Position numbers and translations under genes: made by a program
Notes under the pieces: generated by a model
The model's input: the letters and a program-made list of their open reading frames with translations, nothing else
The model's database searches: none
Told to the model about the DNA's origin: nothing
Shown: in pieces, positions 21,129 to 22,998 of the stretch
Position numbering within the stretch: the first letter of the stretch is position 1
How the letters are laid out: each line of letters opens with the position of its first letter
Origin: Phycisphaerae bacterium
Lineage (GTDB): Bacteria > Planctomycetota > Phycisphaerae > Sedimentisphaerales > Anaerohalosphaeraceae
DNA: 64,000 nt
Direction of reading: 5' to 3'
Assembly (NCBI GenBank): GCA_018052735.1
Contig: JAGPMT010000010.1
Coordinates: 1 to 64,000 of the forward strand

Positions 21129-21869
21129 ATGGGACCGGTTTTACATGGGTTAATTAAACTGCAGCGTGTGGAAAATCGTCTTCGGGCGATCAAAACAAAA
21201 CTGGCCAGATGCCGAAGAGGCGTATTGTTTCAAGAAAATCAGCTGCGGACACTCCAAAGCGGGCTTGAAGCAAAACAGGAGGAAATCAAACTGGCCAGAC
21301 TCCAAGTCAGCCGTCTGGAACTGGAATTGAAGGAGCGGGATGAGCAAATCAGCAAACTTCGCAATCAGTTAAATTTAGCACGCACTAACAAAGAGTATTC
21401 TGCGCTGCTGACAGAGCTGAATACTGCCAAAGCAGACGATTCCAAGCTTGAAACACAAGTCTTGGAGATGATGAAGAATATCGAAGCAGATGAAGCTGCC
21501 TGCGAGGAAATCAAAAAGCAAATAGAGACCCAACGTGTTAAAGTAGATGAGGTTCGCAAGGAAGCGGAAGCCAAAACTGCCGAACTTGAAAAGGATATTG
21601 CTGAAATTCAGGCCGAGTGGGATGCCGCTGCCCGTGATATTCCGCCGGCAGCATTGGCAATATTCAGCCGGGTAGCCGAAAATTATGATGGAGAAGCAAT
21701 GGCAGAGGTGGAACGAGTCGATGAGAACTCTTCCTCTTACAGCTGCGGCGGCTGTTTTATGGGAATTCCTGCTGAAGTAGTGAATGTTTTAAGCGGCAAG
21801 AAAGACGATATTATCCGCTGCAGCAATTGCACGCGGATTTTATACGTCAAAGAAGCCGAAAATCAATAA
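21129..21869 (+). CDS. Coiled-coil protein with C4-type zinc ribbon (DUF164/CdsZ type)
   Basis: 246 aa, cytoplasmic. Residues 5-165 are a long heptad-rich antiparallel coiled coil; the C-terminal ribbon has SCGGCFMGIP and RCSNCTRIL, four cysteines for one zinc. This fits the widespread C4 zinc-ribbon family, whose chlamydial member is secretion-associated and whose other members are often encoded beside RNase H genes. Here too an RNase H domain gene follows after 67 bases, supporting a shared transcript. Confidence 0.88.
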   Translation: MGPVLHGLIKLQRVENRLRAIKTKLARCRRGVLFQENQLRTLQSGLEAKQEEIKLARLQVSRLELELKERDEQISKLRNQLNLARTNKEYSALLTELNTAKADDSKLETQVLEMMKNIEADEAACEEIKKQIETQRVKVDEVRKEAEAKTAELEKDIAEIQAEWDAAARDIPPAALAIFSRVAENYDGEAMAEVERVDENSSSYSCGGCFMGIPAEVVNVLSGKKDDIIRCSNCTRILYVKEAENQ

Positions 21870-21936: not shown

Positions 21937-22998
21937 GTGGGTCAGCAAGTCGAACTTTTTACAGATGGAGGCAGCCGCGGCAATCCCGGACCGGCGGCTG
22001 CAGCTTTTATTTTGAAAGATGAAAACGGACGCTCCATTTTGGCCCGCGGTCTGTTTCTCGGGCAAACCACCAATAATATTGCGGAATATACCGCTGTCAA
22101 GGAAGGTTTGACAGCCGCACAACAGCAGGGGGCTCGATCGATACGCCTGTTTAGCGACAGCCAGCTGCTGGTGCGGCAGTTGAACGGCCAGTATAAGGTC
22201 AGAAGCAGCAATCTGCGTTCTCTTTATGGCGATTGTATGAATTTGCTGAAGTCTTTTGATTCATGGCAGGTTAATTATATTCCGCGAGAGAGAAATACCG
22301 AAGCTGATACTCTTGTCAATCGGGCAATGGACCAAAAAGGCGATGTGAATGCCATAGCGCAAAGGCCTAATCCGAAAGGCAAAACGCTGCGTTTGGGCAT
22401 CCTGCTGAGCGGGGGGGGACGCACAATGGTCAACATTCAGGATCAAATCAAAGCCGGCTGTCTGAATGCTCAAATCGTTTTGGTAATCAGTTCTCGATCT
22501 GATGTTGCTGGCAATGAACGGGCGAGGCAAATCGGTCTGGAACCGGTGATCATCCGAAAAAAAGATTATCCGGATATCGCAGATTTCAGTTGTCGTATTG
22601 CCGAAGAACTCGATAAAGCAAATGTGGATTTGGTCATTCAGGCCGGCTGGCTGTGCCTGTGGCAAATACCCCCGCAGTATGAAAACCGCGTGATGAATAT
22701 CCACCCGGCGCTTCTGCCGGCCTTTGGCGGCAAAGGAATGTGGGGCCATCATGTGCATCAAGCAGTCTTGAAGGCTGGCTGCAAAGTGTCCGGCTGCACC
22801 GTGCATTTCTGTACCAATGAGTATGATGCCGGCCCGATTATCATTCAGCGGGTCTGTGAGGTCAAAGACGACGATGACGCAGATTCTTTAGCAGCACGCG
22901 TCTTTGAACAGGAATGCATCGCATACCCCGAAGCGATCCGATTATTCTCCGAAGGGCGGCTCAAAATTATCGATGGAGTGGTAAAAAGAAACGGCTGA
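21937..22998 (+). CDS. RNase HI-like / phosphoribosylglycinamide formyltransferase fusion
   Basis: 353 aa, one uninterrupted frame holding two unrelated enzymes. Residues 1-135 are a type 1 RNase H of the RVT_3 kind: catalytic acids in LFTDGGSRGNPGP, NNIAEYTAVKEGL, LFSDSQLLVRQL and RNTEADTLVNRAMD, all four present. After a short Lys/Pro linker, residues 148-345 are PurN (formyl transfer from 10-formyl-THF in purine synthesis): LLSGGGRTM, the catalytic Asn and His in MNIHPALLP, and the conserved Asp in YDAGPIIIQ. GTG start. Both active sites look intact, so this is a real bifunctional protein and not a remnant. No other pur gene is adjacent. Confidence 0.93.
   Translation: MGQQVELFTDGGSRGNPGPAAAAFILKDENGRSILARGLFLGQTTNNIAEYTAVKEGLTAAQQQGARSIRLFSDSQLLVRQLNGQYKVRSSNLRSLYGDCMNLLKSFDSWQVNYIPRERNTEADTLVNRAMDQKGDVNAIAQRPNPKGKTLRLGILLSGGGRTMVNIQDQIKAGCLNAQIVLVISSRSDVAGNERARQIGLEPVIIRKKDYPDIADFSCRIAEELDKANVDLVIQAGWLCLWQIPPQYENRVMNIHPALLPAFGGKGMWGHHVHQAVLKAGCKVSGCTVHFCTNEYDAGPIIIQRVCEVKDDDDADSLAARVFEQECIAYPEAIRLFSEGRLKIIDGVVKRNG

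Follow-up and report, generated by a model that had tools for sequence, protein, structure and literature searches.

A conserved RNase HI-PurN fusion in the planctomycete order Sedimentisphaerales

We found that one gene of a Phycisphaerae bacterium encodes, in a single frame, an RNase HI and the purine synthesis enzyme GAR transformylase (PurN), and that this fusion is real, old and conserved in one order of anaerobic planctomycetes, the Sedimentisphaerales. The gene lies in the window, i.e., the whole stretch of 64,000 nucleotides that was analysed. Both domains belong to known families; what appears new is their combination, a lineage-specific fusion between an RNase HI and a metabolic enzyme. 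The original prediction had called the pairing undescribed and, coherently, the open-licence literature that we searched contained no description of an RNase H-PurN protein; the pairing may already be listed automatically among the UniProt/InterPro architectures. The protein is likely a bifunctional housekeeping protein, with two independent enzymes carried on a flexible linker.

The fused frame and its two domains

The fused gene, its parts and its upstream neighbour are located in the window as follows:

21129..21869, + strand: C4-type zinc-ribbon/coiled-coil protein (Zn_ribbon_9, CT398_CC; below the CdsZ cut-off), 67 nt upstream of the fused gene
21937..22998, + strand: fused gene, RNase HI (protrusion-less, RVT_3 type)-linker-PurN, 353 aa, GTG start
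21937..22335, + strand: RNase HI domain, residues 1-133 (Pfam match, catalytic D10, E50, D74 and D124, structure match)
22336..22389, + strand: inter-domain linker, residues 134-151 (poorly conserved; pLDDT <50 at residues 142-144)
22390..22995, + strand: GAR transformylase (PurN) domain, residues 152-353 (NCBIfam and Pfam matches, N254, H256 and D297, structure match to 3auf)

The 353-aa frame (21937-22998, + strand) contains no internal stop. Its N-terminal part is matched by the Pfam families RVT_3 (PF13456, residues 9-130, E 3.2e-26, 92.1 bits against a cut-off of 21.6) and RNase_H (PF00075, residues 3-84, E 2.2e-11, 44.5 bits against 25.8), and the fused protein scores 42.2 bits with PRK00203, the model of the classical E. 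coli-type RNase HI, which is below the cut-off of 160. The C-terminal part is matched by Formyl_trans_N (Pfam PF00551, residues 153-334, E 9.9e-36) and by the NCBIfam PurN equivalog TIGR00639 (residues 152-344, 162.3 bits against 150.1). In the alignment of the fused relatives, the four RNase H acids are unchanged in 50/50 sequences, and the same holds for N254, H256 and D297 of PurN, which correspond to the catalytic N106, H108 and D144 of the E. coli enzyme.

The AlphaFold2 model, obtained from 12 input sequences (mean pLDDT 88, pTM 0.60), predicts two separate folds. Residues 147-353 superpose on the GAR transformylase 3auf (1.4 A over 202 residues, Z 30.2). For residues 3-132 the match is 3hst (3hst_D), the structure of the Rv2228c RNase H domain (0.9 A over 130 residues, Z 23.7); the RNase H half also fits 4e19_A (Z 23.9) and 3u3g_A (Z 21.6). 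Pfam, TIGR00639, the catalytic residues and the model agree on a complete RNase H and a complete PurN within one frame, as had been proposed from the DNA. The automatic annotation probably names the whole protein PurN, hiding the RNase H.

In the same alignment, codons 134-151 have the lowest conservation of the whole fusion, which matches the linker originally placed at about 22345-22385. Among the 50 relatives, the linker spans 21-66 residues between the aligned domain borders and its sequence is not conserved. Between close pairs, dN/dS is ~0.04-0.2 in both domains and the linker is looser, the exception being one short-branch pair in which RNase H reaches 0.38; as read from these substitution rates, purifying selection acts on the RNase H and PurN domains alike. 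RNase H changes faster than PurN, with a mean pair identity of 0.54 vs 0.70.

A start codon is found in or near the linker in 45/50 fusions, but many of these are the conserved Met that ends the RNase H helix and lack a Shine-Dalgarno sequence. A linker start accompanied by any Shine-Dalgarno-like motif is present in 14 of the 50, at varying positions, and we rejected the idea that PurN is translated on its own from within the gene, as no ribosome site plus start is conserved in the linker of the 50 fusions. In the window, the linker GTG at codon 137 (22345) is preceded by AAGG and is a possible internal start. The start codon of the fused gene itself is nearly always GTG or TTG and rarely ATG (50 relatives), and its spacing to the RNase H motif is constant; these GTG/TTG starts could hold its translation low. 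One fused relative (L103) has no ATG, GTG or TTG ahead of the RNase H motif, and may need CTG or another start. Promoter and terminator scans were uninformative.

Taxonomic range, gene neighbourhood and origin of the fusion

The search for full-length homologues, suggested together with the original prediction, was carried out on a class-wide draw of 396 Phycisphaerae genomes, 105 of which belong to the order of the window, the Sedimentisphaerales. The full-length fusion is present in at least 88 of these 105 genomes, according to a hand count in which 84 genomes show a single full-length match and another four (G022, G263, G275 and G395) have full-length frames with longer linkers. Ten genomes of the order are not fused, seven from family f5 (one of which, G051, has no match at all) and three from family f4; in the remaining seven the match is cut by a contig end, partial or missing. 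Among the 291 other Phycisphaerae no full-length fusion was found, the best matches beginning near residue 115-152 and corresponding to PurN alone. No fusion was found either in the 166 Planctomycetota genomes outside the class (phylum-wide draw), where PurN alone appears among the matches listed. A strongly diverged fusion could escape these genome searches.

The same open frame occurs in independent metagenome-assembled genomes (MAGs), including those recorded as Sedimentisphaerales and Anaerohalosphaeraceae (L037, L039), from which we take the name of the order. It also recurs in genomes that consist of one contig, among them G015, G309, G336, G344 and G354. This rules out an assembly or frameshift artefact, to which we assign a practically negligible probability, and with it the stop or frameshift between the domains that had been named as grounds for discarding the fusion.

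The zinc-ribbon gene is a conserved neighbour of RNase HI across Phycisphaerae, and no other purine gene is present in the immediate neighbourhood of the fused gene. In the outgroup Phycisphaerae L110, L112 and L113 such a zinc-ribbon gene precedes a stand-alone RNase HI, and in L094 and L095 ileS (identified by family search) is followed by purN. RNase HI and purN are also apart in family f5, which belongs to the same order: here the zinc-ribbon gene precedes an RNase HI with a C-terminal extension, and purN comes directly after ileS (L072, L075). The f5 extension (L064-L068) adds ~120 aa for which no Pfam or NCBIfam family was found; that of L112 weakly resembles TIGR04076 (6.8e-6, below the cut-off).

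In the phylogenetic trees, the RNase H domains of the fusions group together in a single clade (99/99 support), apart from the stand-alone RNase H. In the PurN tree the split f5 copies fall among the fused ones, although a topology with a single fused clade passes the AU test (p 0.27). This mixing leaves it uncertain how many fusion and fission events took place. The simplest history that we infer is one purN relocation followed by in-frame joining: purN would have left its place next to ileS once, when the order arose or later, and landed at the 3' end of a zinc-ribbon/rnhA operon, where it would then have been joined in frame.

A different, likewise unusual PurN fusion was observed in a single genome, G069 (family f18, Phycisphaerae). 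At L101:2551-3567 (- strand), one open frame of 339 aa encodes a PurN preceded by a HEPN domain (residues 6-121; PF05168, E 2e-14).

Redundancy, loss of the RNase H half and meaning of the joining

In the genome of the window (2.88 Mb, 96% complete), the fused copy is the only PurN. The other PF00551 matches were rejected as a second purN, being by eye a methionyl-tRNA formyltransferase (L002) and a sugar-formyltransferase-like protein (L003). PurT is absent from this genome: the search returned long ATP-grasp frames alone, carB-like and accC-like by length and below the cut-off. The fused domain is also the only RNase H detected by the family searches, and no type 2 RNase H (HII/HIII) was found by family or same-genus protein query in this 96% complete assembly. 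To our knowledge, nearly all bacteria possess a type 2 RNase H; its apparent absence here may reflect either an assembly gap or a diverged form. The alternative of separate purN and rnhA genes beside a dead fused copy, raised with the original prediction, does not hold in this genome.

Three side observations were made during these searches. The L003 gene (L003:1165-2019, - strand, contig C63) lies between sugar 3,4-ketoisomerase-like and DegT/DnrJ aminotransferase-like genes, as judged by eye, and probably serves formylated amino-sugar synthesis. At C15:20421-22787 and C46:112872-115301, two frames of 1075 and 1084 aa carry paired ATP-grasp matches each and look like two carbamoyl-phosphate synthase large subunits. 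In relatives, the type 2 RNase H matches seen, of ~320 aa, were only weak.

The RNase H half has been lost naturally in one lineage. In the finished f4 genomes G037, G042 and G046 the locus consists of the zinc-ribbon gene followed by PurN alone, and no RVT_3 domain was found in them; the f4 relatives G050 and G054 keep the fusion. In all three, a classical RNase HI is encoded elsewhere (E 1e-43 to 1e-44), and the classical enzymes of domain-lost relatives (L122, L124) exceed the PRK00203 cut-off. Among nine other genomes tested for a classical RNase HI, G336 alone has both this enzyme and the fusion. The comparison, 3/3 vs 1/9 in small numbers from two genera, is suggestive rather than statistical and fits displacement, with the fused domain serving as the cell's RNase HI and droppable once another is present. 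Because the genomes that lost the RNase H half all carry a separate classical rnhA, the fused domain appears to behave as the cell's RNase HI and to be separable. Mycobacterium smegmatis likewise tolerates the deletion of either one of its two RNases HI, though not of the pair (PMC7466739).

In the reading that we favour, the N-terminal domain would be the cell's type 1 RNase H, clearing RNA from RNA/DNA hybrids, and the C-terminal domain would be the only GAR transformylase, which uses 10-formyl-THF in the third step of purine synthesis. Co-translated behind the zinc-ribbon gene, the modules would work independently, and the fusion would be retained through co-expression or drift rather than substrate channelling. 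Judging from the sequences, both domains are presumably active; their independence is suggested by the variability of the linker and by the RNase H loss in one lineage. Each half is an ordinary enzyme, and their pairing is perhaps a historical accident.

The original prediction had gone further, proposing a protein that joins hybrid turnover with purine synthesis. While its fusion proved real, conserved and undescribed in the literature searched, the functional link is unsupported: the linker varies in length and sequence, one lineage has lost its RNase H half with PurN kept in place, and the domains of the related actinobacterial RNase HI-CobC protein proved functionally independent in vivo (PMC7466739). 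Overall, a functional RNase HI-PurN unit selected across the order, with PurN as the missing substrate grip or with purine supply coupled to hybrid removal, seems unlikely to us. We also doubt that PurN aids the RNase H, i.e., that the partner of an RNase H without the basic protrusion, the part by which the hybrid is gripped, gives substrate contact or faster product release, although full-length Rv2228c works faster than its isolated N-terminal domain and CobC has been suggested to replace the protrusion (PMC7466739). The RNase H described here is of the same protrusion-less type (3hst, Z 23.7), and at this locus RNase HI has varied C-terminal extensions in Phycisphaerae (PurN, TIGR04076-like in L112, the unnamed ~120 aa in f5). 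However, such a helper role fits poorly with a linker of unconserved sequence and 21-66 residues, with the stand-alone RNase HI of the same type in outgroup L110, and with the CobC deletion in M. smegmatis, which had hardly any effect in vivo (PMC7466739).

Metabolic coupling, in which purine supply is tuned to replication or RNA turnover, or PurN is tethered to nucleic acid via RNase H and the zinc-ribbon neighbour, has a distinctly low probability: the RNase H half is gone in a lineage that keeps PurN in place, and the immediate neighbourhood is devoid of other purine genes. Moreover, the products of RNase H are oligonucleotides, which are not PurN substrates. What speaks for coupling is the long conservation of the fusion across an order, together with the co-purification with DNA of MSMEG_4306, the mycobacterial counterpart of the zinc-ribbon neighbour (PMC7092591). 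We give very little credence to the RNase H domain being a former nuclease turned into a nucleic-acid-binding or structural appendage of PurN. Its faster divergence would be coherent with such a role, but its four acids are kept in all 50 relatives under purifying selection, most of the genomes tested contain no further type 1 RNase H, and only genomes with a classical RNase HI lack the domain.

Significance and comparison with known systems

With the Sedimentisphaerales protein, nature has joined an RNase HI of this type, beside the same kind of zinc-ribbon gene, to an unrelated metabolic enzyme for a second time and in another phylum. It turns the curiosity of Rv2228c/MSMEG_4305, judged as fixed by drift, into a testable pattern: is the partner irrelevant, or does a protrusion-less RNase HI need some C-terminal partner? 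With its fused, split and domain-lost versions, the order is a natural experiment. In addition, because the automatic annotation likely names PurN only, the genomes of the order may be recorded as without RNase HI.

The closest known systems are the actinobacterial RNase HI/CobC proteins (Rv2228c, MSMEG_4305 and SCO2299; NF005567 PRK07238), for which the activities of both domains were measured; these domains are functionally dissociated in vivo, and the authors explained the fusion by drift (PMC7466739). They share with the protein described here an N-terminal protrusion-less RNase HI, a variable linker, a C-terminal metabolic enzyme, confinement to one lineage and an adjacent zinc-ribbon gene (MSMEG_4306/Rv2229c there, Zn_ribbon_9 at 21129-21869 here), MSMEG_4306 being a C4 zinc ribbon protein associated with DNA (PMC7092591). 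They differ in the C-terminal enzyme, which is a histidine phosphatase there and PurN here; PRK07238 matches the fusion at residues 6-141 only, with 117.8 bits against a cut-off of 326.

With bacterial PurN (TIGR00639; 3auf, 2ywr), the fusion shares the complete domain and the catalytic Asn, His and Asp (41% identity to 3auf over 202 residues), and it differs in the attached N-terminal RNase H. With the stand-alone RVT_3-type RNases HI (LC11 3u3g, Halobacterium 4e19, Sulfolobus 2ehg), it shares the fold, the four acids and the lack of a basic protrusion, but PurN stands where those enzymes have a free C-terminal end. Lastly, the eukaryotic GARS-AIRS-GART protein also joins PurN with other enzymes in one chain; unlike that protein, the fusion described here pairs PurN with a partner from outside the purine pathway.
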